Source: Deltaproteobacteria bacterium
GTDB lineage: Bacteria; Desulfobacterota; Desulfarculia; Adiutricales; Adiutricaceae
Direction of reading: 5' to 3'
Length of the DNA stretch: 38,428 nucleotides
Assembly (NCBI GenBank): GCA_031264185.1
Contig: JAISEL010000078.1
Coordinates: forward strand, 1-38,428
In this document: positions 1,881 to 37,484 of the stretch, piece after piece
How the letters are laid out: each line of letters starts with the position of its first letter
How positions within the stretch are numbered: position 1 is the first letter of the stretch
Notes under the pieces: model-generated
What the model saw: the letters and a program-made list of their open reading frames with translations, nothing else
Database searches by the model: none
Told to the model about the DNA's origin: nothing
Made by a program: the position numbers and the translations under genes

Positions 1881-2900
1881 TTAGATCTCAAACTTTACCG
1901 GGGCGGACTGGCTAAGTTTTTTTACCAGTTCCACAGCTTCGTAGCTTAACTTACCGGGCAGAGAGACCTTGACCGTTATGTAGAGATCTCCGGCTTTTTT
2001 CTGACCAACGGCTGGTACGCCGTGGCCTTTAATTCTGAACTTCTGGCCGTTTTGGGTTCCGGCCGGCACTTTTAAGTTAGACTGCCCGTTTAATGTCGGC
2101 ACTTCCATCCAACCGCCCAAAAGGCACTCGTAAAGGGAAACCGGCTGCTCAACGTACAAATCCTGATTTTGGCGGGTAAAAACTTTGTCCGGGAGCACAG
2201 TGACTTTAATGAGCAGATCCCCGTTGCCTCCACCGTTCTCCCCTGCCCCGCCCTGACCTTTTAGGCGGATAACCTGCCCATCGCTGACCCCGGCCGGAAT
2301 GCGGGCTTTTAAGGTCTGATGTCCGACAGTTTTGCCCTGACCGGCGCAAACCGGACAGCTTTTAACCCCAGCGCCGGAAGCCACCACGCCCTGACCGCTG
2401 CAGCGGGAGCAGATTTCCGGGACGTCCTTTTCTAAAGTCACATCAGTCCCGTTTACGGCGGAACGGAAATCCAATTCCAAAGAGTAGTCTATGTTAGGGC
2501 CTTTTTTCGGTTTCTGGCCAAAGGAAAAATTCTGGCCGAAGGAAAAACCGCCTCCGCCGGCGGATTTGCGGGAAGATCTGGCTCCGCCGCCTAAAATATC
2601 ATTAAACATGTCGGCCCAGGGAAACTCGCCTGTTTCAAAATTAGGCCGCTTATAACCGGTTCCGCCAAAACCGGACTGGTAAAAAGCATCTTTGCCTAAA
2701 TTGTCGTATTCGGACTTCTTGGCGGGATCCGACAGAATATCGTAAGCTTCGGACAGTTCCTTGAATTTGGCTTCCGCTTCCTTACTGCCGGGATTGAGGT
2801 CAGGATGGAACTTTCTGGCCAACTTCCGATAAGCTTTTTTAATATCCTCCGGTTTGGCCTTAGTGTCCACACCCAAAGTTTTGTAAGGGTCAAGACTCAT
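1881..2900 (-). CDS. DnaJ-like J-domain co-chaperone with half a zinc finger
   Basis: Hsp40 co-chaperone expected to stimulate DnaK ATPase and deliver unfolded clients in the cytoplasm. The J-domain occupies residues 1-70 with the HPD motif near 33. A Gly/Phe-rich linker follows (about 75-130), then the C-terminal substrate-binding domains (about 137-335). Between the sheets there are only two CxxCxGxG motifs, near 164 and 181. Classical DnaJ has four and CbpA none, so this protein should bind a single zinc ion. The length of 339 residues is between CbpA and DnaJ. It is the first gene of a two-gene unit with the DHH phosphoesterase. The ATG at 2900 has no normally spaced Shine-Dalgarno; see the hairpin leader at 2901-2954. 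Whether it is the main DnaJ of the cell or a paralogue cannot be decided here. Confidence 0.9.
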   Translation of the reverse strand: MSLDPYKTLGVDTKAKPEDIKKAYRKLARKFHPDLNPGSKEAEAKFKELSEAYDILSDPAKKSEYDNLGKDAFYQSGFGGTGYKRPNFETGEFPWADMFNDILGGGARSSRKSAGGGGFSFGQNFSFGQKPKKGPNIDYSLELDFRSAVNGTDVTLEKDVPEICSRCSGQGVVASGAGVKSCPVCAGQGKTVGHQTLKARIPAGVSDGQVIRLKGQGGAGENGGGNGDLLIKVTVLPDKVFTRQNQDLYVEQPVSLYECLLGGWMEVPTLNGQSNLKVPAGTQNGQKFRIKGHGVPAVGQKKAGDLYITVKVSLPGKLSYEAVELVKKLSQSAPVKFEI

Positions 2901-2954
2901 CCGATCTTCGGCGTGGGAACCCCGGCCAAAAAGCCAGGAAAAACGCCGCCTCCT
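2901..2954 (-). promoter_or_regulatory. Shine-Dalgarno/hairpin/start leader of the dnaJ-like gene
   Basis: Minus-strand order: AGGAGG (2954-2949); hairpin outer arm CGGCGT (2948-2943); inner arm CCTGGC (2938-2933); loop TTTTTG; inner arm GCCGGG (2926-2921); outer arm ACGCCG (2914-2909); spacer AAGATCGG (2908-2901); then ATG. The Shine-Dalgarno is 48 nt from the start in linear sequence but 8 nt if the hairpin is skipped. No other good Shine-Dalgarno lies in the last 15 nt. The same architecture and similar sequence precede the fur gene. Structure and spacing are seen directly; a role in translation is inferred. Confidence 0.65.
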
Positions 2955-2968
2955 GAAGTTTAGCTTAA

Positions 2969-2997
2969 ATTAGAAACGAAGTAGCGGTTATTGACAA
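2969..2997 (-). promoter_or_regulatory. Sigma-70-type promoter of the dnaJ-like gene
   Basis: Minus strand: -35 TTGTCA (2997-2992), 17-nt spacer, -10 TCTAAT (2974-2969). Each hexamer matches the consensus at 5 of 6 positions. The predicted transcript would start near 2962, giving a leader of about 60 nt that begins just before the AGGAGG and hairpin. Confidence 0.6.
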
Positions 2998-3010
2998 TAC
3001 CAAAAGGCTG

Positions 3011-3865
3011 TTATGATAATCCACCTCTGCCAGAACCGGGTCTTTTTTTCAATAAACTCCATAATATGACCGGCCCGATGACCAGCAGACCGCCCCACAG
3101 AGCCATGGGCCCGGGTTTTTCCCCGTACATAAGATAGACCCAGACCGGATTTACGACCGGCTCAAGCATGGTCACCAAAACCAGCTCCAAAGAAGTTACC
3201 CTGGGCACGGCTAAGGCGTACAGATAATAGGGAATGCCCATCTGAAATACGCCCAATAAAATTAAAATGAACCAATCCCCGAAGCCCGGCCAGGGACCTG
3301 ACCAGGCCCATAGGCCGAGAATAAACGTCAGGTAGTTACCCAGAATAAGTCCGCCGGCCGGCAGGTAATTGTTCCTAAAACGTAAAACCAAGGCCTGGAC
3401 ACCGAAAAAAAGGCCGCTGACCAGAGCCAGGATGTTACCCCAGAAGCCTTCCGAACTTAAGCTGTCCTGAAAAAAAAGGACCACCCCGCCGAAGATTAAA
3501 ATGATGAAAATCCAGTCCGTCCGGGACGTTTTTTCCTTTAAGATCCAGGGAGCCAGAAGAGCCACCCACAAAGGAGCGGTGTACTGAAGGACAATGGCGT
3601 TGGCCGCCGTCGTCAGCTTGATGGCGCTGACATAACAGATAGACAGGGAAGCCAGGCAAAAACCGCTGAAAACCTGAGGCCGGTTAAGTTTCCTGGGCCG
3701 AAAACCGCCTGGCAGGATCAGGGACATAGTCAGCCCGGCCACGAGGCCTCTGGCCGAAGCTATGGCTACCGGGTTCCAGTTAAGCCCTTTGACCAGAACT
3801 CCGGATGTACTCCATAAAAGGGCCGCCACAAACAGTATGCCCAGGGCCCCGGTTTTGCTGCCCAT
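3011..3865 (-). CDS. EamA/DMT-family inner-membrane transporter
   Basis: Drug/metabolite-transporter superfamily protein of 284 residues, the usual length for two tandem EamA domains. About ten hydrophobic segments are visible. The first carries the typical start with a W-S-T-S-G-V motif near residue 20, and each half holds a conserved proline/tyrosine helix. A basic C-terminus follows the last segment, as expected for a cytoplasmic tail. Such proteins export or import amino acids, nucleosides or other metabolites; the substrate cannot be predicted. The Shine-Dalgarno GAGGA lies about 9 nt before the ATG. It sits between the DEAD-box helicase and the dnaJ-like gene and appears to be a separate unit. 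Confidence 0.85.
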   Translation of the reverse strand: MGSKTGALGILFVAALLWSTSGVLVKGLNWNPVAIASARGLVAGLTMSLILPGGFRPRKLNRPQVFSGFCLASLSICYVSAIKLTTAANAIVLQYTAPLWVALLAPWILKEKTSRTDWIFIILIFGGVVLFFQDSLSSEGFWGNILALVSGLFFGVQALVLRFRNNYLPAGGLILGNYLTFILGLWAWSGPWPGFGDWFILILLGVFQMGIPYYLYALAVPRVTSLELVLVTMLEPVVNPVWVYLMYGEKPGPMALWGGLLVIGPVILWSLLKKRPGSGRGGLS

Positions 3866-3916
3866 GAAATAAAGTCCTCATCAGCCGAAAACGAACAAAA
3901 TTCCAAAAACCAAGAC

Positions 3917-6433
3917 TTATTCCCGGACAGTATCACCGGCCGGAGCTGTCGCAGCCGACCCGGCTTCGGCCGTTTTTTTGGCAGTTTTTTTAACGGCCGA
4001 TTTTTTTACCCCCGTCTTTTCGGACTGACTTTTGGCCGATTCCGATTTAGGGCCTGAAGCCGGTACAGCCTGGGATCTGGTTTTAGGGGCTTTTTTAGCC
4101 ACCGTACTTTCGGAAAAAGCCGGTTTAGCCGAAGATTTCCGTGGCCGGGGCGTTTTAGGTGTCTTAGCCGGGACTGATTTAGCCGAGGGTTCGGGTACGG
4201 CGCTTAACTGAACCGCCTGCTCAAAGGCCTCAAAAGCCGGTTGGTCCGGATACTCTTCGGCCGTGACGGCGGACCCCAAAAAGCTGTTGTCCAGGACTTC
4301 GGCCGGCGGATTTTGGGATTTATCTTCAGAAGTTGCAGCTTTAGCCGAGGACTTCCGAGGAGTCCGGGCCGATTTGGATTCCCGGACCGGCTTCTGACTG
4401 ACGGCTTTTTTCCTGACCTGGCTGCGGCGGGATTTGGCCGGAGGTTCTTCGGCCGCCGGTTCCTGGGCCACTTCTTGAAACTCGACCAGAGGCGCAGGCT
4501 CCTGAGGTTCGGAACTTTTGCCTTCAACCGGCCCGGCTGAAGATTGCGCCTCAACAGACAAAGGCTCCTGTTCGTAGGCTAAGGGGGCCTCATAAGCGGT
4601 CCCGGCCGAAGGCTGACCCTGAACCGGCAAGAAGCCTTTGGGTTCTAAAGCCCCGGAATCCAAAGGCGATCCAGAAGCCAGGGTGTCCGCCGCCGATTCT
4701 TTTTCAGTAAAACATAAAGTCTCAGACTCGGCTACGGTTTTTGGAGCCAGGCTTTCAGGAGGCTGGTTTAAGCCGGACTGGGCTGTCTGAGCCTCAGTCT
4801 CGCGGGGGCCTTTACTCCAGCGGCGTTTGCGGCGACGGCCTTCCTGAGCTTTTTTGTCCCCTTGGTTTTCCGGCTCCGGGAATCCTTCCAGACCGGCCGG
4901 GGTCCAAGACAGAATCTGGCGGACATCGGGGGTAGCCTCTGTCAGCGGCTGGCGGGGAGCCAAGCCGAAAATACCGCCAGGACGACTGCTCTTAGCCGGA
5001 CTGCGGAACCGGGTGTCTTCAAGCCTGGTGGCCGGTCCCCGGTCGCTGCGGTCATCAGGTTTCCGGTCGCCGAACCGGCCTTTCCGGCTGTGAGGCCGTT
5101 CTTTAAGTTTAACTTCAGCAGTTAAATCAGGCACAAAAAGTTCGTCGTCAGCCCAGACTACGGGGATCTTTTCGCCTAAAATATTTTCAATGGCTTCTAA
5201 ATGAAAGACATGATCCTCACAGGCAAAGGAAACAGCCTGACCGCTCTTGCCGGCCCTGGCTGTCCGACCTATGCGGTGAATATAATTTTCCGCATCCTGG
5301 GGCAGATCATAGTTATAGACATGGGAGACATCCTCAACGTGAATACCCCGACTGGCCACATCGGTGGCCACCATGATCTGGAGGCGTTTCTGCTTAAAAT
5401 CTTCCATTAATCTCAAACGTTTAGGCTGGGGCAAATCACCGGTAATGCCCTCGGCCTGGAAATTATTTAAGACCAGTTTCTTGGCCAGCCACTCAACTTC
5501 GCTTTTCGTATTGCAGAAAATAATAACCCGGCTGTGTTCTGCCCGGCCCAGGAGGCCCAGCAGCAGAGGCAGCTTTTCCTCTAAACTGACATGGTAGAGA
5601 GTCTGGTTAATCTGAACCTTGGAAGCCGGATCGGGTTCGGCCGTAATGTACTGGGGCGGATTCATGAACTGGTACGTCAGTTCCAGGACCCGTTCATCTA
5701 AAGTGGCCGAAAAAAGCATAGTCTGACGGTGGGTATAGGAAGGCAGTTTCGACAGAAGGGATTTTAAATCCCGGATAAACCCCAAGTCTAAAAGGCGGTC
5801 GGCTTCGTCCACCACAGCCACTTCCACGGCCCGGGGATCAAAAACACCCTGCTTTAAATAATCTAAAATCCGGCCTGGAGTGCAGATAACTATGTCCGGG
5901 CCGGCCTCCAGAGCCTGAGCCTGTTCACGGTATTCGATGCCCCCGATGATTAGAGTCTGGGTTAAACTGGTAAAACTGGAAAGTATCCGGGCGTCTTTAT
6001 AAATTTGTTGAGCCAGTTCCCGTGTGGGTGTGACCACGATGGCTCTCGGCAGGCCGACCAGAAGGGACGGTCTTTTTAAAAGACGGGTCAGAAGGGGCAC
6101 CAAAAAGGCCGTCGTTTTGCCGGTCCCGGTCTGGGCCTGACCGGCAATGTCATAGCCATCCATGGCCACCGGAATAACCTGAGCCTGAATCGGAGTGCAG
6201 CACTCAAACCCGGCCGCATCCAGACCGCTCATAATTTCCTGTGGCAGAGTCAGATCGGCAAAGCGGGTTGAGGTTAAAAAATTGGGCCGAACTGCCCTGA
6301 TTTCCGGGTGTTCGGAGGAATCGTCTAAATCGGGTAAAGGCCGGTTTAAATCTTCCTCCGGCAAAGATGGATCCAGAACCGAGTCAGAATCCCGGAAAGG
6401 ATGCGGCTCTGTTCCATCAGCAGTTGACTGCAT
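3917..6433 (-). CDS. DEAD-box RNA helicase with very long low-complexity tail
   Basis: ATP-dependent RNA helicase of the RhlE/DeaD group. Motifs in order: the Q motif PIQAQ (near residue 82), AQTGTGKT (motif I, near 100), PTRELA (Ia), DEAD (motif II, near 208), SAT (III), a TDVASRG-type motif V, and HRIGRTAR (VI, near 386). The helicase core ends near residue 430. The remaining about 400 residues are rich in Lys, Ala, Pro, Ser and Glu with repeated SAK/KTP-like runs and no recognisable domain. They are probably a disordered RNA-binding tail. I chose the ATG at 6433 because AGGAG lies 5 nt upstream. An earlier frame start at 6469 falls in the terminator. The gene directly follows the S41 protease but is separated by a terminator. 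Confidence 0.92.
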   Translation of the reverse strand: MQSTADGTEPHPFRDSDSVLDPSLPEEDLNRPLPDLDDSSEHPEIRAVRPNFLTSTRFADLTLPQEIMSGLDAAGFECCTPIQAQVIPVAMDGYDIAGQAQTGTGKTTAFLVPLLTRLLKRPSLLVGLPRAIVVTPTRELAQQIYKDARILSSFTSLTQTLIIGGIEYREQAQALEAGPDIVICTPGRILDYLKQGVFDPRAVEVAVVDEADRLLDLGFIRDLKSLLSKLPSYTHRQTMLFSATLDERVLELTYQFMNPPQYITAEPDPASKVQINQTLYHVSLEEKLPLLLGLLGRAEHSRVIIFCNTKSEVEWLAKKLVLNNFQAEGITGDLPQPKRLRLMEDFKQKRLQIMVATDVASRGIHVEDVSHVYNYDLPQDAENYIHRIGRTARAGKSGQAVSFACEDHVFHLEAIENILGEKIPVVWADDELFVPDLTAEVKLKERPHSRKGRFGDRKPDDRSDRGPATRLEDTRFRSPAKSSRPGGIFGLAPRQPLTEATPDVRQILSWTPAGLEGFPEPENQGDKKAQEGRRRKRRWSKGPRETEAQTAQSGLNQPPESLAPKTVAESETLCFTEKESAADTLASGSPLDSGALEPKGFLPVQGQPSAGTAYEAPLAYEQEPLSVEAQSSAGPVEGKSSEPQEPAPLVEFQEVAQEPAAEEPPAKSRRSQVRKKAVSQKPVRESKSARTPRKSSAKAATSEDKSQNPPAEVLDNSFLGSAVTAEEYPDQPAFEAFEQAVQLSAVPEPSAKSVPAKTPKTPRPRKSSAKPAFSESTVAKKAPKTRSQAVPASGPKSESAKSQSEKTGVKKSAVKKTAKKTAEAGSAATAPAGDTVRE

Positions 6434-6451
6434 ATGTTCTCCTGAAAAACC

Positions 6452-6490
6452 AAAAAAAAAGGCAGGCACTCACCATACAGACCAGCGCCT
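6452..6490 (-). terminator. Intrinsic terminator after the S41 protease gene
   Basis: Minus-strand stem AGGCGCT (6490-6484) pairs with AGTGCCT (6470-6464) with one G-U pair and a 13-nt loop. GCC and a run of nine T (6460-6452) follow. The helicase Shine-Dalgarno begins only 9 nt later, so readthrough or a promoter upstream of the hairpin would feed the helicase. Confidence 0.65.
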
Positions 6491-6538
6491 GGCCATGAAA
6501 ATTATATTTACTGCCCAAAATTCAAGGCTCAAGCGACC

Positions 6539-8023
6539 TTACCCACGGGGCCGGACAGAAACAGGGGGGCCGGTAAAATGGCTTTGAACCTTGCCGTTTT
6601 GCAGCATCTTAAGGGCCTGACTTAACTGCTTGTCCACTTCCAGACGCTCGGCCAGAGTCATTTCATACAGAGGCTTGTCTAAAAACGGCCCTTCTTCGTC
6701 ATCGGATGATTTTCGGCCTGACTTGCGATCCTTGTTGGAGCCAGAAGACCGGCCGACTGTTTTATCGTCGGTTTTCCGGCCGGAGAAGGTATCCTCATCT
6801 TCATCTGCGGCCTCACTGTCTTTATCCGGCTTTCTGTCTTCCCTGACTTCATTGGCCCCCAGTAAATGGCGTTCCAAATCCGTCTCCCTGATGGCTTTAA
6901 TATTGGGAGGCAGAAGACTGGGCACTACCACGTCAGGAGTAATGCCTTCCGACTGAATAGCCCGGCCGGAGGGAGTATAAAAACGGGCTGTAGTCAGCCG
7001 CAGACCCGAGCCGTCAGGCAGACGGACAACGCTTTGGACCGAACCTTTGCCGAAAGTTTTGGCCCCTAAGATGACAGCCCGGCCATAGTCCTGCATGGCT
7101 CCGGCCACAATCTCACTGGCGCTGGCAGAACCTTCGTTGACCAGGACCACAATGGGGCACTTCAAAGATAAAATAGCATCCTGTTCCGAGGTGTAAACCT
7201 CATTCTGGTCTTCCACCCGGCCTCTTGTCTCCACCACCTGAACCGGGCCCATGAAAAGGCCGCTGACCCGGATGGACTGATCCAGAAGTCCGCCCGGATC
7301 GTTTCGCAAATCCAGAACCAGACCGGTCATAGGTTTGGGGGCGCCCAAAGTGCGGATAGCTTTCTCCACTTCCTGAGCCGTATCACCCTGGAAATTAGTA
7401 ATATGGATATAGCCGATGCCAGGCGCCAGTTCTTCGGAACGGACACTCCGGAGGGGGATAAAGTCGCGGATAATGGTCATGGTTATGATCTTGTCCTGGC
7501 CGGGCCGATAGATCCCGAACACGACTTTGGAGCCCTTGGGACCCCTGATAGCTTTGACCGCTTCCATGACCGACATATCTTTGGTGGGTTTCTCGTCAAT
7601 GGAAATGATTTGATCGCCGGAGCGCATCCCGGCTTTGGCGGCCGGGGTTCCGTCTATAGGGGCAACCACAGTCAGAATCTGATCCCGGGTGGAGATCTCC
7701 ACTCCGACCCCGGTAAAACTGCCTGAAGATTCCTGTTGAAACTCGTTCATTTCCTCGACAGTCATAAAAGAAGAGTGGGGATCTAAGGTATTGAGCATAC
7801 CACGGACAGCCCCCTGGACCATCTCGGAATTGTCGGGTTCTTCTACAAAGCGCTGATTGACTTCATAGAAAACCCGGGCCAGAGTCTTGAAACCCTCATA
7901 AATTTTAAAATCCGAGGCCTTGGCTTCCGGAACAATGACCAGTACGCCAACCAGAACAACCAGTCCCAGAAAATTGGCCAGCCTGTGTCTGGCGGCCAAC
8001 GGCCGATCCAAACCTATTGACAT
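6539..8023 (-). CDS. S41-family carboxy-terminal processing protease (CtpA-like)
   Basis: Periplasmic or membrane-anchored C-terminal processing protease. An N-terminal hydrophobic segment (about residues 18-36) serves as signal or anchor. A PDZ domain spans about 80-165 with a GVGVE carboxylate loop near 92. The S41 catalytic domain follows, with the nucleophile in GSASASEI (near 285) and the lysine in GKGSVQ (near 310). A DLRNDPGG motif precedes the nucleophile. The C-terminal about 100 residues are charged and low-complexity. The ATG at 8023 has GGAG 6 nt upstream; a TTG four codons earlier overlaps that site. It lies 57 nt downstream of fur in the same direction, so the two may be cotranscribed. 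Confidence 0.93.
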   Translation of the reverse strand: MSIGLDRPLAARHRLANFLGLVVLVGVLVIVPEAKASDFKIYEGFKTLARVFYEVNQRFVEEPDNSEMVQGAVRGMLNTLDPHSSFMTVEEMNEFQQESSGSFTGVGVEISTRDQILTVVAPIDGTPAAKAGMRSGDQIISIDEKPTKDMSVMEAVKAIRGPKGSKVVFGIYRPGQDKIITMTIIRDFIPLRSVRSEELAPGIGYIHITNFQGDTAQEVEKAIRTLGAPKPMTGLVLDLRNDPGGLLDQSIRVSGLFMGPVQVVETRGRVEDQNEVYTSEQDAILSLKCPIVVLVNEGSASASEIVAGAMQDYGRAVILGAKTFGKGSVQSVVRLPDGSGLRLTTARFYTPSGRAIQSEGITPDVVVPSLLPPNIKAIRETDLERHLLGANEVREDRKPDKDSEAADEDEDTFSGRKTDDKTVGRSSGSNKDRKSGRKSSDDEEGPFLDKPLYEMTLAERLEVDKQLSQALKMLQNGKVQSHFTGPPVSVRPRG

Positions 8024-8080
8024 GGAGAACTCCAACAGATGAGCCCAGTCAGGCCCAATACTTTCGCTTTGAGGCCCAGG

Positions 8081-8563
8081 CTACCTTTTCTCCGCTTGAC
8101 AGGCCGAGCAAAGACCCCAAATTTCAAATTTATGCCCTTCGCTTTTAAAACCTTCCTGACGGGAGATTCGTTTTTCCACCTGACCAAGTTCCGGAGCGGA
8201 AAACTCAAATATACGGTGGCAGTTTAGGCATCTTAAATGACTGTGATGTTCCCGTCCGTAAACCCGTTCGTAATGCATATGGCCGTTTTCCAAATAAACT
8301 TCAGCCAGAAGACCCGACTCGATCATCAAAGGAATAGCCCGGTAAATTGAAGCCTTGGACACCGGAGTTTTGGCCCGGAGATATAAAAACAACTCATCTA
8401 CATCAAAATGATCATGGTTTTTTAAAATAGACTCAGCAATGGCCTCCCGTTCTTTCGTCACCCGGTAGCCGTGAGTTTTAAGAAACCCTCGGAAAGCATC
8501 CATTTCCTCTGACAGATCAACCGACGGTTCGGCGACGGCTGGATTGTTTCTGTCTTCACTCAT
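8081..8563 (-). CDS. fur: Fur-family metal-responsive repressor
   Basis: Ferric-uptake-regulator family protein of 160 residues, normal length. The winged helix (about residues 25-105) includes the recognition helix around SKASIYRAI. The metal-binding dimerisation part has HHSHLRCLNCH (near 110-120), a histidine near 148 and a C-terminal CSAC, giving the two CxxC pairs of the structural zinc site. Fur, Zur and PerR cannot be separated with certainty. The iron-uptake-like cluster with a Fur-box candidate at 20708-20726 makes an iron-responsive role plausible. The ATG at 8563 has no Shine-Dalgarno at normal distance; the leader at 8564-8621 carries the same hairpin arrangement as dnaJ. Confidence 0.88.
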   Translation of the reverse strand: MSEDRNNPAVAEPSVDLSEEMDAFRGFLKTHGYRVTKEREAIAESILKNHDHFDVDELFLYLRAKTPVSKASIYRAIPLMIESGLLAEVYLENGHMHYERVYGREHHSHLRCLNCHRIFEFSAPELGQVEKRISRQEGFKSEGHKFEIWGLCSACQAEKR

Positions 8564-8621
8564 CCGAATCTTCGGCGTAGAAACCCCTGCCTTCCGGCCG
8601 GAGAGGAAACGCCGTCTCCTT
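8564..8621 (-). promoter_or_regulatory. Shine-Dalgarno/hairpin/start leader of fur
   Basis: Minus-strand order: AAGGAGA (8621-8615); outer arm CGGCGT (8614-8609); inner arm CCTCT (8606-8602); loop of 13 nt; inner arm AGGGG (8588-8584); outer arm ACGCCG (8578-8573); 9-nt spacer AAGATTCGG; then ATG. Linear distance from Shine-Dalgarno to start is about 51 nt; it is about 9 nt if the hairpin is skipped. The outer stem, the spacer and ATGAGT match the dnaJ leader almost exactly. The inner stem differs in sequence yet still pairs. Confidence 0.65.
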
Positions 8622-8639
8622 AAGTTTATTTATTAGAAC

Positions 8640-9060
8640 CAAAGTATCCGTATCCGAATCCTTATAATAATTAATACCCTCAGCGGGTTGAATGGCCGCC
8701 CTTTCGGGCCGCTCCCCTCGGGGACATTTTACGCAGAAGAGATTCCGGCCTGCCTCAGACCTGCCGTTGGCTGATCGGCAAACCCAGACTTCAAGATGAC
8801 GAAGCATTTGAACACCCCGCCGCAGGTCGAATCCTACGGCAGACGCAACGGACTGGGGCCGCCTTCCCCGGTCAATCCCGGGATTTTCAAGCCCCCTGTC
8901 TCAGCTGGTGCGATTAACGGCCTTGGCCTGAAAAACAGGACCGATTCAAACCGGTTGTGCGGTTAGGTACTAAAAACAATATTTCTATGCCTCCACCATG
9001 CTTTCTTCACACCTTAATATCCTAAGTCTACCATAAATAGAATTGATTAACAAGATTAAT
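8640..9060. other. GC-rich non-coding stretch with alternative stems
   Basis: About 350 bp between fur and rsfS without a convincing gene; a minus-strand open frame at 8556-8807 has no homology I recognise and overlaps the fur leader. GACCTGC (8758-8764) can pair with GCAGGTC (8822-8828). Overlapping CTGCCGT (8761-8767) can instead pair with ACGGCAG (8836-8842). CCCCTCGGGG and a GAAA-capped GC stem (minus strand near 8690-8712) add further structure. This could be a small RNA or a long fur leader. I could not match it to 6S, tmRNA, RNase P or SRP RNA. Confidence 0.3.
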
Positions 9061-9093
9061 TTGACCCTGAACGATCAGCTTCCTGGGTTTTTC

Positions 9094-9111
9094 GGCGGGA
9101 ATTTACCCGCC
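9094..9111 (-). terminator. Hairpin just after rsfS
   Basis: GGCGGG (9094-9099) and CCCGCC (9106-9111) form a 6-bp GC stem with a 6-nt loop, 9 nt past the rsfS stop. On the minus strand no T-run follows, so it may stabilise the mRNA 3' end or end transcription inefficiently. Confidence 0.4.
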
Positions 9112-9119
9112 CGGGGAGG

Positions 9120-9728
9120 CTAAAGCCGGGGGGCGTCAGCCCACAGACCTTCCAGATCGTAATAAGCCCGGGTTTCGTCATTAAAAATATGGGCCACTAC
9201 CTCGCCTAAGTCCACCAGAGCCCAGTGGATATCGCCAGAGACGAGACCTTCCTGACCCAGAAGTTTTACTCCGGCCTCCAGTGACCTTTGGATAATTTTA
9301 TCGGCAATGGTCTTAATCTGGCGGGGATTCTGGGCGCTGGTTATGAAAAACCAGTCGGCCACCGACGACAGGCCCGAGAGATCCAGTAAGACCGGGGCGT
9401 GAACCTTATGCTCGGCAGCGGCTTTAAAGACCAGTTCGGCCAAGGCCCGGCCGCTGGGGGCCAGGGGGACGATTTTTTTCTTCCGTGTCCGGGGTGGCTT
9501 GGATTCCTGATCAGTCAAAAGATCGGCCGGAATCCCAGCCGGTTTTTCTTCTTCTGCCAGAGGTGTGGGGCCGACCGAAGGGCTGGATTTAAGCGGACCG
9601 GACCTGGGTTTCCCGGTCCCGGTCTTGGCGGTGGATTCGGTGGTTTTTTTTACCCGGACAGTTCTGGGCCGGCCAGTACGGCGGCTGTCGCCGGAGTTTA
9701 AATTCGTCTCAGGAGAAACCGGAATCAT
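9120..9728 (-). CDS. rsfS: Ribosome silencing factor RsfS with basic N-terminal extension
   Basis: RsfS (Iojap/DUF143 family) binds ribosomal protein L14 (uL14) and blocks subunit joining during starvation. The family domain covers about residues 95-200: an ALAELVFKAA start, DLSGLSSVADWFF, a QIKTIAD helix and the signature DIHWALVDLGEVVAHIF. The first about 90 residues are a Lys/Arg/Pro/Thr-rich extension that most RsfS proteins lack. I chose the ATG at 9728 because GAGGT ends 4 nt upstream; a GTG two codons earlier overlaps that site. The start overlaps the end of the nadD region, so the two are coupled. The nadD-rsfS order is widespread in bacteria and supports the call. Confidence 0.92.
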   Translation of the reverse strand: MIPVSPETNLNSGDSRRTGRPRTVRVKKTTESTAKTGTGKPRSGPLKSSPSVGPTPLAEEEKPAGIPADLLTDQESKPPRTRKKKIVPLAPSGRALAELVFKAAAEHKVHAPVLLDLSGLSSVADWFFITSAQNPRQIKTIADKIIQRSLEAGVKLLGQEGLVSGDIHWALVDLGEVVAHIFNDETRAYYDLEGLWADAPRL

Positions 9729-9735
9729 CAGCACC

Positions 9736-10398
9736 TCAATTTTTTGGATTGTATAAACCGTGTCCGGCCAGATAGACCCGGACCTCCTCGGGGACTAAGT
9801 AGCGGACCGAATCCCCGTAAGCCAGACGTTCTTTAATGTATGTTGAAGATATATCCAGGCGCAAACCCTGATAATAATGGACCGGATTAAAGCCCGGCCG
9901 GACAAAAGCTTCCCGGGTTTCGTCCCACAAAGGCTCTCCGCCCATAATCCCGGTTAAAAGACGGCCCAAAGCCTCTCTGTCCCCAGGCAGGGCCCACTGC
10001 CCCGGGCGCCGGAAGACGACCAGGGAGACCAGGGACATAAGTTCTTCGTAGCCCCGCCATTTACGGATGCTTTGAAAAGAATCATACCCCACCAGAAAAA
10101 ATAATTCTCCTTTTTCCTTTTCTTTCAAAGCCCTCAATGTGTTAACCGTGTAACTGGGCCGGGGCAGACTTTCTTCTAAATCCGTGACCTCAAAGCCTGG
10201 CCGATTTTTGATCGCCAGTTTCAGCATGGCCAAGCGATGCCGGAAATCGGCCGAACCTACAGGCTGTTTATGGGGATGCTGGGCAGCCGGAATAAAAATC
10301 ACGCGGTCAAACATAAAGTGGGCGGACAATTCTTCAGCGGCCCTTAAGTGCCCTAAATGGACCGGATCAAAAGATCCGCCGAATAAACCCAGACGCAT
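9736..10398 (-). CDS. nadD: Nicotinate-nucleotide adenylyltransferase NadD
   Basis: Converts nicotinate mononucleotide plus ATP to nicotinate adenine dinucleotide in NAD synthesis. The Rossmann nucleotidyltransferase fold is shown by GGSFDPVHLGHL at residues 6-17 (GxFDPxHxGH motif) and by ISSTYIKERL near residue 186 (the ISSTxxR motif). The length of about 220 residues is typical. The ATG at 10398 has AAGG 5 nt upstream and follows the gpsA stop by one base; a GTG at 10410 is an alternative. The gene is the middle member of a tight gpsA-nadD-rsfS unit. Confidence 0.95.
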   Translation of the reverse strand: MRLGLFGGSFDPVHLGHLRAAEELSAHFMFDRVIFIPAAQHPHKQPVGSADFRHRLAMLKLAIKNRPGFEVTDLEESLPRPSYTVNTLRALKEKEKGELFFLVGYDSFQSIRKWRGYEELMSLVSLVVFRRPGQWALPGDREALGRLLTGIMGGEPLWDETREAFVRPGFNPVHYYQGLRLDISSTYIKERLAYGDSVRYLVPEEVRVYLAGHGLYNPKN

Positions 10399-10399
10399 A

Positions 10400-11443
10400 T
10401 CAGCCTTCACTGAACTCCGGGGGTTTCAAATCAGGGGCCAGTTCCGGCTTAAGCCTTCTGGTCAGCAAATCCACCAGACCCTGACGGGGCGCTTTGCCCT
10501 CATACAAAACCCGGTAAATCTCCCGGATCGTCGGAAGGTTAAGCCCGTTGGCCTGAACCAGACCCCACAGAGATTTGGTGTTTTTGACTCCTTCGGCCAC
10601 TTCCCTCTGGCCTGCCAGTATATCGGTCAGGTTCTCCCCCGAGCCCAAACGAAGACCGACCCGCCGGTTGCGGGACAGATCCCCGGTGGCGGTCAAGAGC
10701 AGATCGCCTAAACCGGAAAGCCCGGAGATTGTCAGAGGGTTGGCTCCGACCGAGACGGCCAGACGGGTCATCTCGGCCAGAGCTCTGGTCAGAAAAGCAG
10801 CCCGGGCGTTTAACCCCAGACACAAACCGTCGCAGATGCCGGCCGCTATGGCATAGACATTTTTCATGGCTCCGCCCAGTTCTACGCCTTTAACGTCTCC
10901 GGAAGTATAGATCCTAAAAACCGGCGCCGAAAGCCAGGTCTGAACCTGGGCCGCTACCTGAAGATCCTCAAAAGCAACGGTTACGGCCGTCGGCAGCCCT
11001 TCAGCCACTTCCCGGGCAAAACTGGGGCCGGACAGGGCGCCGACAGGCATGGTCAGACCCAGGGTTTCTTCGGTCAGGATTTCGGTCATGGTGGCAAAAC
11101 TGTCGTCTTCTATGCCTTTGGCCGCGCTGACTAAAATTGTCTTCGAAGTTAAGTAAGGCCGAAATCCCCGGACCACTGACCGTAAAACATGGCTGGGCAC
11201 GACCCAGATAACAAGCCGGGCCTCTTTAACCGCTTCTTCATGGTCGCAGGTAGCCACAATTGACGGCGGCAGGGTCAGACCTGGCAGAAAGCTTTCGTTT
11301 TCCCGTTCCAGATTTAAAGTCTCAGCCAGTTCCGGTCTTCTGGCCCACAGGCGAACAGAAAAACCCTGGCGGGCGGTATGGATGGCCAAAGCCGTGCCCC
11401 AGGCTCCGGCTCCTATTACAGCGATTTTCTGGCTGGTCCGCAT
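10400..11443 (-). CDS. gpsA: Glycerol-3-phosphate dehydrogenase [NAD(P)+]
   Basis: Makes sn-glycerol-3-phosphate from dihydroxyacetone phosphate for phospholipid synthesis. The N-terminal Rossmann motif GAGAWGTALA lies near residues 12-21. Other family landmarks are SAAKGIE (near 107), LSGPSFAREVA (near 142), the catalytic lysine in GAMKNVYAIAAG (near 195) and a C-terminal GLSGLGDLLLT. The length of 347 residues is normal. The ATG at 11443 has GAGG about 4-5 nt upstream; the TTG just before it is less likely. First gene of the gpsA-nadD-rsfS unit. Confidence 0.96.
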   Translation of the reverse strand: MRTSQKIAVIGAGAWGTALAIHTARQGFSVRLWARRPELAETLNLERENESFLPGLTLPPSIVATCDHEEAVKEARLVIWVVPSHVLRSVVRGFRPYLTSKTILVSAAKGIEDDSFATMTEILTEETLGLTMPVGALSGPSFAREVAEGLPTAVTVAFEDLQVAAQVQTWLSAPVFRIYTSGDVKGVELGGAMKNVYAIAAGICDGLCLGLNARAAFLTRALAEMTRLAVSVGANPLTISGLSGLGDLLLTATGDLSRNRRVGLRLGSGENLTDILAGQREVAEGVKNTKSLWGLVQANGLNLPTIREIYRVLYEGKAPRQGLVDLLTRRLKPELAPDLKPPEFSEG

Positions 11444-12127
11444 CAAACCTCACAACCCCGCAGGCCTTGTTCCGCTTTTGAAAAATGGGCCGAAATTGAG
11501 CCCGAAATTTAAGATTTTTGGCCCCCGGGCCGACAAAATATTAAGGCCGCCCGCAATCCAGGCCGCTTTGGGGAACTATGATTCTTGAACTTAATCTTCT
11601 TATGGTTTACATTATTTAAGATCGGATTTCCAGAAAAAAACTTGGCCAAGCATAAAGAGACAGAATTAAATCTCATTGAGAGCAATTTTAGTATATTAGC
11701 GCAGATTCAAAAATAAATTTTCCTGGACTGTCTGATAAATTTTCCTGTTTTTTTGGGTCTCTTAGGTAAATTTTTTTTATTGAACTTAAAAAACTTAGTA
11801 CTTTCAGGCACTTAGTCTATATTTTTTTTAGGCCTTTATAAATAAAACAGTTGACAGGCCCTCACTTTTAATAGTAACATAGTTTTTATATTTTAAAAAC
11901 AATTTGCCGTTTAAGTACGGACTTGTTTTGAGCCGCTTAAATAAAATCTAAATTAAAACTTCCTCTGTCTGGGAGATCTTTTCCCAAAACCAAAGGCCTG
12001 TAAGATGGCCACTATGCAGTTGATGATTTTTAATATAGGGTTGATTTGTTAAATTTGCTGGCAATTACAGCTCATTAAATAGGCCGCCATAGCCGATAAT
12101 ATTCAAGGGTTCCTTAATACTACAATC
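11444..12127. other. Long AT-rich divergent intergenic region
   Basis: About 700 bp between gpsA (minus) and the LysM gene (plus), with no gene. A plus-strand promoter candidate TTGACA (11851-11856), 18-nt spacer, TAACAT (11875-11880) lies about 300 bp upstream of the LysM start. This would give a long leader. T-rich runs near 11740-11840 are notable. A minus-strand promoter for gpsA should also lie here, but I see no strong match. Confidence 0.35.
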
Positions 12128-12176
12128 AAGGAGGCCGCGCTGGCTTTAATAAAGCTCAAAGCGCGGAGAAGACGTA
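12128..12176 (+). promoter_or_regulatory. Shine-Dalgarno/hairpin leader of the LysM gene
   Basis: AAGGAGG (12128-12134) is directly followed by stem arm CCGCGCT (12135-12141). A small inner stem GCTTT/AAAGC (12143-12155) and arm AGCGCGG (12160-12166) follow, then 10 nt, then ATG. Linear spacing is 42 nt; hairpin-bridged spacing is 10 nt. Unlike the dnaJ and fur leaders, a second weaker site GGAG (12165-12168) lies 8 nt before the ATG, partly inside the stem. Conventional initiation is therefore also possible and would be masked by the folded stem. Confidence 0.5.
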
Positions 12177-13229
12177 ATGGCAAGACCTTTAATCGTGATA
12201 TTTCTGGCTCTGGGCCTGGCACTGCTGGGGCTTTCCCAGGGTTATTCCCAAGACGGGGCGGCCACCCAGACTTACGTGGTCCAAAAAGGCGATACGCTTT
12301 CCAAGATCGCTAAAAAGTTCTACAACAAAGCCAGTTTAGGCTCGCGTCTGTGGCGGGCAAACCAAAATCTCGTGGCCCACCCCAAAAGACTGACCCCGGG
12401 CGATGTGCTTTATATTTTCCCGGAAAGCACTCTAGCTTTAAACACCCCCATTTCCGTGCCTCCGGCTCCGGAAGCGCCGCCCCAGAACCTTTATCCCCAA
12501 AACGAATATATGAGGATGTCTTTCCCCAAGTACTTCTCCTTTGTCTCTGACCTGCAAAGCCATGCCAACACGACCAGGGTCAAAGTAAAAAAAATAGTCC
12601 CCCGGACCGTGACTGAAATTGATCCGGAAACAGGTGAACCCGTTGAAGTTACCTCCGAGACCATGGTCGACGAACTCTACGAAGTCCGCATTGTCGGCGA
12701 AATCATCGCCAGCCAGGAACGGGGAGCCACTATCCGCGACGACGGTTTTTCGGCTGTGGCCACAGGCCGGACTCTCCTTTCCACAGGGGACACGGTTATG
12801 GTCCGTTTTTCCGAGGATCTGGCCAAGATAATGGATTCCGATACTTATGATGATTCGGATCCCTATTTTACCGCATTTCCGGTCTATTCCCCTAATGTAA
12901 TTATTCAGGAGCCAGACCGCAAAAAAGCCGATTACGCCCGCAGCCTGGGCAACCTGATGTATTTTAAAGGCCGGATAAATATTGTCAGCCGGGTCGAAGG
13001 TCTGGCTCCTCCGGTGCCCAGAGACGCCAGCAGAGCTAAAAACCGAGCCGGCCAGTCCAATCAGGATCTTGAGGACGTCTCCTATGTCGCCCGGATCACT
13101 TATTCGGAAGATGCTATTTACTTAGGCGATAAAGTTGTCCTGTTTGTGCCCTTAAAACCCGGACCGGAAAGGCGTTTGGACTCTCCCTATGTCGAACAGC
13201 CGGATTCTTACCGGGCGCCGGGCAAGTAA
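12177..13229 (+). CDS. Exported LysM-domain protein
   Basis: Probable periplasmic peptidoglycan-binding protein of 350 residues. A signal peptide spans about residues 1-25. One LysM domain follows at about residues 32-85, with the classic YVVQKGDTLSKIAKKFY start and a PGDVLYIFP end. The remaining about 260 residues are a conserved-looking beta-rich region with no domain I recognise. Similar LysM plus beta-rich exported proteins are common in deltaproteobacteria. It starts a plus-strand envelope block with the lipoprotein and the OmpA-like protein, which also bind or sit near peptidoglycan. An exact role is not assignable. Confidence 0.8.
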   Translation: MARPLIVIFLALGLALLGLSQGYSQDGAATQTYVVQKGDTLSKIAKKFYNKASLGSRLWRANQNLVAHPKRLTPGDVLYIFPESTLALNTPISVPPAPEAPPQNLYPQNEYMRMSFPKYFSFVSDLQSHANTTRVKVKKIVPRTVTEIDPETGEPVEVTSETMVDELYEVRIVGEIIASQERGATIRDDGFSAVATGRTLLSTGDTVMVRFSEDLAKIMDSDTYDDSDPYFTAFPVYSPNVIIQEPDRKKADYARSLGNLMYFKGRINIVSRVEGLAPPVPRDASRAKNRAGQSNQDLEDVSYVARITYSEDAIYLGDKVVLFVPLKPGPERRLDSPYVEQPDSYRAPGK

Positions 13230-13298
13230 AATTTTTTAAAGCAAGTTATATTTTGCCCTTCCTGGATTTCTTCGGCGGGACTGCATCCAGTCATGCGG

Positions 13299-13395
13299 TG
13301 ACCTGGCCAAAATAGGGAGACAGACTCCCGGCGGAATTGGACTATTTCAAAAGGAGGTCTCTGGCTTTTGGCCAGGTCAAAAGCCAAATATTGCT
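13299..13395 (+). promoter_or_regulatory. Two-state structured leader of the lipoprotein gene
   Basis: AAAAGGAGGT (13349-13358) lies 37 nt before the ATG. Between them TGGCTTTT (13362-13369) pairs perfectly with AAAAGCCA (13379-13386), leaving 9 nt to the start. This brings the Shine-Dalgarno to an effective spacing of about 12 nt. A competing perfect 14-bp pairing exists between TGACCTGGCCAAAA (13299-13312) and TTTTGGCCAGGTCA (13366-13379). It uses part of the bridging hairpin and so excludes it. A further small stem GGGAG/CTCCC (13315-13329) lies inside that loop. Pairings are seen directly; switching is inferred. Confidence 0.6.
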
Positions 13396-37020: not shown

Positions 37021-37484
37021 CTATTCCTTTCTGGCTAATTGTTGATGTCAATTCCGAGATCATTTGACACCCAGCCTTTATATTTCCCGGCCGCAAAATA
37101 GGCCGAGTGTTAATCTTCTTAACCCAAGTATAATACTATATTTTGTGACCTAAGGCAACAATTTTTTCAAAAAAAACCGGATTTCACACCCAGGCAGATC
37201 AAAAAACAAATCCCTGAAAAAAAATTTATTCCCCCAAGCTTAACTCATCCGACCTTCAGTGCCGTGACACCAGCCAAAAGACCGGACAGGAAGCCGACTC
37301 TTCTATTTTAGTTTAAATAAAAAATACGATTCTTTTTATTAAAGACCCATACGGGTTGAAAAAAGACGCGCCACATCACGCTCCTCCAGGGAATGTTTTC
37401 GCCGATGATGCCTTCACAAAAATCCCTGTTTTCAGAAGTCGAGTTAAAAAATGTAATGATGTCACTTAGTTATAAATATATTTT
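37021..37484. other. AT-rich upstream region of dnaN, no gene
   Basis: No gene and no TTATCCACA-type DnaA box that I can see. It presumably carries the dnaN promoter. Confidence 0.4.

Follow-up and report, generated by a model that had tools for sequence, protein, structure and literature searches.

Two genes on the reverse strand of the window, the whole stretch of 38,428 nucleotides that was analysed, are preceded by leaders of the same construction. The dnaJ/cbpA-like gene (1881..2900, -; NCBIfam DnaJ 8e-92) begins with ATGA and adjoins a segment at 2901..2967 (-) that we assign to the right end of an ISC/HEARO transposon by alignment, folds and a match to our covariance model R1 (2895-2967(-), 87.1 bits). 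This right end has an AT-rich lead, the Shine-Dalgarno (SD) sequence AGGAGG at 2949-2954(-), a hairpin P1 pairing 2943-2948 with 2909-2914, and a hairpin P2 inside it; by sequence reading and folding the stem covers 2909-2948 and 8 nt then remain to the ATG. The fur-family regulator gene (8081..8563, -; NCBIfam Fur 1e-21) starts with ATGAGT, and the segment before it at 8564..8633 (-) is assigned in the same way (R1 match 8558-8633(-), 86.4 bits). Its SD is AAGGAGA at 8615-8621, P1 pairs 8609-8614 with 8573-8578 and P2 lies inside. Reading and folding gave GGAGA at 8615-8619(-), a stem at 8573-8614 and a linker of 9 nt to the ATG.

The two leaders share the sequence AACTTAAGGAGG-CGGCGT-TTTCC-[P2]-TTTCT-ACGCCG-AAGATTCGG-ATGA, in the order SD, hairpin P1, internal loop, hairpin P2, 8-9 nt and ATGA. 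They are two copies of one element; that they belong to one sequence family had been missed in the sequence-only reading of this DNA. The dnaJ copy is a right end alone, and the fur copy has a HEARO-plus-right-end form running from 8564 to about 8910 (-). A probable HEARO (omegaRNA) remnant of the same element as the fur right end was located at 8706..8918 (-), with a match to RF02033 of 18.5 bits (E 0.14-0.25, below gathering). Colinear homology of the fur copy with other copies extends to -346 from the fur ATG, and iscB has probably been deleted between the HEARO remnant and the right end. A decayed orphan right end, with a broken SD and no gene behind it, was detected at 37243..37315 (-) (R1 42.3, R2 48.9 bits), near the contig end.

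The leader of a lipoprotein gene (13351..13395, +) contains the SD AAGGAGG at 13351-13357, a stem pairing 13362-13370 with 13378-13386, and a 9-nt linker before ATGAAA. This genome and five congeners share its SD AAGGAGGT unchanged, 38-64 nt away from ATGAAA. The sequence of the intervening stem differs in each of these genomes, the z-scores of single-sequence folds were mixed (-3.75 to +0.5), and the leader scored 17.1 bits against model R2. By its sequence we take it to be a separate, genus-conserved split ribosome-binding site; perhaps it is an old transposon insertion or end. The distal SD and gap-filling hairpin that the earlier reading had described before the dnaJ-like, fur and lipoprotein starts were verified by sequence and folding. 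The same reading had included the leader of a LysM gene (12130..12176, +). The distal GGAGG (12130-12134) with its hairpin is indeed present there, but the gene also has a proximal GGAG (12165-12168) 8 nt before its ATG. Six congeners retain this proximal SD, without the distal GGAGG, and their sequence cgGGAGagacgcg-ATG corresponds to GCGGAGAAGACGTA-ATG in this genome. Because of this correspondence we concluded that LysM uses an ordinary SD, likely the proximal GGAG, and we ruled it out as a structure-bridged case.

It had also been suggested that such leaders reflect a general mode of initiation, which would appear as an excess over shuffled leaders. We counted distal GGAGG sites followed by a bridging hairpin before ATG and compared the counts with dinucleotide shuffles; raw counts of GGAGG at 25-75 nt fell mostly on internal ATGs. 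In random regions of this genome 16 cases were observed against 10.5 in shuffles, three of the 16 being the window cases. The corresponding values were 12 and 13.9 in the congener G003, 39 and 37.8 in G015, 20 and 20.6 at the fusA loci of the family, and 54 and 45.8 in unrelated bacteria. Once the repeat family described below was set aside, no excess of the SD-hairpin-ATG arrangement over shuffles was found in this genome, the congener, another genus or unrelated bacteria, and a single case of it therefore proves nothing. A general initiation mode arising gene by gene was dropped on these counts, most cases being dispersed transposon ends. The more limited proposal, that structure-bridged SD sites recur selectively in this lineage, held in the form of about 70 homologous copies and the lipoprotein leader.

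The repeat family could be recognized from the exact string ACGCCGAAGAT-N0-6-ATG, for which the genome has ten matches, all of them preceded by a GGAG-type SD site, and the reversed control 0. R1 was built from these ten matches; searched with it, the 4.4-Mb genome yields about 70 full-length copies, most with E <1e-10. Among the 69 good copies, 65 lie at an ATG, reading ATGA, and 59 have an ORF of at least 66 codons behind them. The base at +4 was A in every copy (69/69), compared with 56 of 165 control genes. The genes behind the copies include nrdR, secA, rplO, cysS, pheT, guaA, asd, argB, argD, aconitase, folC, hemW, trpC, trpF-trpB, pcm, modA, fur and the dnaJ homologue; they are diverse and without a common pathway, and many are essential or core housekeeping genes. 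A leader peptide with the TGA of ATGA as its stop codon was ruled out, since one-base differences in linker length between copies change the frame. A known Rfam cis-regulatory leader was likewise ruled out, as no Rfam family matched the SD-hairpin module itself. Members of one paralogous gene family (MKIRQDFVTNSSSTSFII...), present in at least four copies, three of them in tandem, each have their own transposon-end leader (L094 on contig C11, 12753-14484; L099, 613-684). Short ORFs with a long LSLSLSLS dipeptide run were found behind right ends L033 (C90:46816) and L097 (C68:182); the run could be a phase-variable repeat of the hexanucleotide type. The closest named records for this bacterium, Deltaproteobacteria MAGs and Candidatus Adiutrix, presumably come from the termite gut.

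Similarity between copies breaks off abruptly at the ATG; on the upstream side it covers 100 to 1,400 nt and forms a mosaic whose 5' ends differ. In the longest, full-length copy, on contig C97, the order is HEARO, iscB, leader module and ATGA. Its HEARO matched with 47 bits (E 2.9e-8; HEARO matches in this genome reach 47-48 bits, below gathering), and its ORF of 431 aa contains RRXRR (PF14239, 2.5e-34) and HNH (PF01844, 1.4e-4) domains and was identified as IscB. Most other copies are deletion derivatives without iscB, consisting of HEARO plus right end or of the right end alone. In the sister genera G010 and G024, HEARO RF02033 was found at 95-106 bits, above gathering (L259, L260, L269), with an intact iscB, the same end directly 3' of it and then ATGA; two of these three intact-element ends, L259 and L260, had been left out of model building. 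Of a Y1 transposase, only one short PF01797 fragment was found in this genome. ISC elements have their target motif 3' of the element, the same side on which ATGA is found here, and the original HEARO description reportedly mentioned ATGA/GTGA insertion sites. IsrB requires an NTGA target-adjacent motif (PMC9581776), with which the ATGA flank agrees. From gene order and flank we identify the recurring leader as the right (3') end of ISC/HEARO (IscB-omegaRNA) transposons. A REP/RAYT origin, an idea that came from the GGAG and the imperfect palindrome, was dropped because iscB and HEARO lie upstream.

Comparison with congeners indicated that the copies were inserted. The nrdR and fur leaders of the congeners are ordinary and unrelated to the element. 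This genome has 332 nt between the end of the conserved rpmD and rplO. In congeners the distance is about 0-4 nt, the stop codon of rpmD adjoining or overlapping the start of rplO (CAATGAGG in G006); in G001 the tail of rpmD is longer, yet there is no gap. In size the 332-nt insertion roughly matches a HEARO-plus-right-end copy. At nrdR, rplO and fur the element was absent in the congeners compared. Upstream of nrdR (L231, L232, L233, L235) the congeners have a conserved AT-rich promoter-like block that this genome lacks.

Scanning 37 genomes of the family with model R2 revealed the right end in 19, several of which have between 5 and 36 copies. Copies read in other genera are nearly all followed by ATGA, TTGA or GTGA, and in the genomes read nearly all precede the ATGA of real genes, including, as named by eye from their N-termini, rplC, era, gltX, glmM, alaS, dnaJ, trmD and ilvH. 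P1 and P2 differ in sequence among genera yet stay paired (94.9% of cells). Two-sided changes numbered 83, in 11 of 13 pairs, which 0 of 500 shuffles equalled; the alignment was fitted to structure and favours it, but slid controls were far lower and the differing P1 sequences are plain nonetheless. G-U pairs exceeded A-C mismatches on the coding strand (91 vs 32), as expected for RNA. The leader of the elongation-factor-G-like gene fusA has the same architecture in nine species, with the SD kept over several genera, which makes at least one copy a maintained leader of long standing.

The distribution has exceptions and side branches. A TTGA-flanked subfamily in G010 and G024 has the same SD and hairpin, mostly without a clear gene behind. 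It comprises about 30 copies, many at contig ends and with a second small hairpin before them (e.g. L056 and L063 in G024, L061 and L064 in G010). In G004, G009 and parts of G014 and G015 the right ends have no strong SD before the hairpin. Another ISC subfamily is represented in the congener G003 (L253, L254, L256, L265) by 27 iscB fragments; its 3' end differs (...CTCTCCCTTGTGAACGCTT) and is without the SD-hairpin-ATGA architecture. In two other families of the phylum the ends 3' of iscB read SD-hairpin-ATGA (L324, L327), which suggests that the start-codon device belongs to the transposon group as a whole rather than to a single bacterium.

To judge whether the end supplies the SD of the host gene, we compared gene-linked with orphan copies. 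The SD core was kept in 55 of 59 gene-linked and 4 of 10 orphan copies (Fisher p 3e-4), and of the 6 P1 pairs 5.55 and 4.9 were kept, respectively (p 0.016), in an orphan sample of ten of which some lie at contig ends. Retention of P2 did not differ between the two groups. Another SD core 4-12 nt before the ATG was present in only 4 of 59 gene-linked copies, compared with 68 of 165 control genes. This pattern of retention favours initiation from the distal SD with the hairpin folded in between, and a split ribosome-binding site of the phage T4 type is the best candidate mechanism because P1 and P2 covary strongly across genera. In some copies CCUCC in the internal loop could, from its sequence, pair with GGAGG and hide the SD; CCTCC occurs in 21 of 69 copies and is not conserved, so sequestration as a family-wide feature was ruled out.

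Our explanation, to which we give a probability of about 0.78, is that a transposon right end carrying an outward-facing SD and a bridging hairpin lands before ATGA and initiates translation of the host gene. ISC/HEARO elements sit directly 5' of NTGA, and in this genome that motif is nearly always the ATGA with which a gene begins, so that the transposon comes to lie between the start codon of a gene and its old leader. The right end presents its SD, the hairpin of P1, internal loop and P2, and 8-9 nt. Folding of the hairpin would bring the transposon SD to about 8-9 nt from the ATG, where ribosomes could use it. Most copies have lost iscB and survive as host leaders. A further step, which we judge slightly better than an even bet, is that ISC/HEARO elements are start-codon specialists whose right end evolved as a split ribosome-binding site with the transposon hairpin as the bridge. 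Insertion at a start codon would thereby spare the host gene and be harmless, and copies could be adopted in large numbers as leaders of essential genes.

The same ends might instead serve transposition only, GGAGG and hairpin acting as a single-stranded DNA hairpin and guide for the Y1 transposase, while host genes start independently of an SD and ATGA is a target-site effect. TTGA-flanked copies without genes keep the GGAGG, and the SD may thus have another role in the transposon; ends in some genera have no strong SD, and GGAG with an imperfect palindrome resembles REP and IS200 ends. We nevertheless consider this explanation unlikely. ATGA is frequent everywhere, yet 59 of the 69 copies are at the starts of real genes; gene-linked copies keep SD and P1 better than orphan copies do, with no such difference for P2, the gene-linked copies are without a proximal SD, and the SD of the fusA leader persists over several genera.

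A cis-regulatory RNA class, riboswitch or protein-bound leader, controlling a regulon of about 60 genes would account for the conserved internal loop UUCCU/UUUCC, the covariation and the number of genes, and Rfam lists multi-copy lineage-specific leader motifs such as TD-1/TD-2. It is very improbable, as the homology upstream runs into HEARO and iscB, orthologous genes in congeners are without copies, the genes have no pathway in common and the same end occurs 3' of intact iscB in other families. Chance was given hardly any weight. Hairpins between a distal GGAGG and an ATG are common, unrelated leaders match shuffles and LysM is such a case, but for the dnaJ, fur and lipoprotein leaders chance is already refuted by about 70 homologous copies and the genus-wide lipoprotein SD.

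The elements resemble known ISC/HEARO elements (IscB or IsrB with omegaRNA, IS200/IS605 superfamily) in their HEARO RNA, RRXRR-HNH protein, NTGA-abutting end and small deletion derivatives. They differ from those reported in lying at about 60 host start codons in one genome, with a right end that would supply SD, hairpin and spacing. In the open-licence literature we found no paper that connects start codons or SD sites with IscB or IS200/IS605 ends. Putative mobile promoters, REP/REPIN and BOX are short dispersed repeats near genes, whereas the repeat here stops precisely at the start codon and has its origin in an IscB element. The comparison with T4 genes 25 and 38 made in the sequence-only reading is apt, given the SD adjoining P1, the 8-9 nt linker and the stem covariation. 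In the split sites of T4 genes 38 and 25, which are conserved in relatives, the SD-AUG distance is reduced from 22 to 5 and from 27 to 11 nt (PMC3014915), so that in both systems an over-long gap is closed by a stem, to 5-11 nt in T4. In T4 the device is confined to single genes, has short stems and is proven by experiment, whereas here, as read from sequence, a mobile element brings a two-part hairpin of about 40 nt to many genes. IStrons, which combine a group I intron with an IS, offer a parallel as mobile elements with an RNA device that renders insertion harmless (PMC4227781). They splice themselves out of mRNA, whereas the element described here would provide a start signal anew.

Cas9 descends from IscB elements, which are under study as tools for editing, while their life with their hosts is little known. 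If the right end is a ready-made ribosome-binding site, this would explain how an element adjoining ATGA is tolerated before secA, rplO, guaA and pheT. So far a few genes of phages have provided the known examples of structure-bridged initiation; the approximately 60 genes in this genome, with more in other genera, would be natural replicates of it. The ends would also offer transposons a route to rewire translation starts wholesale.
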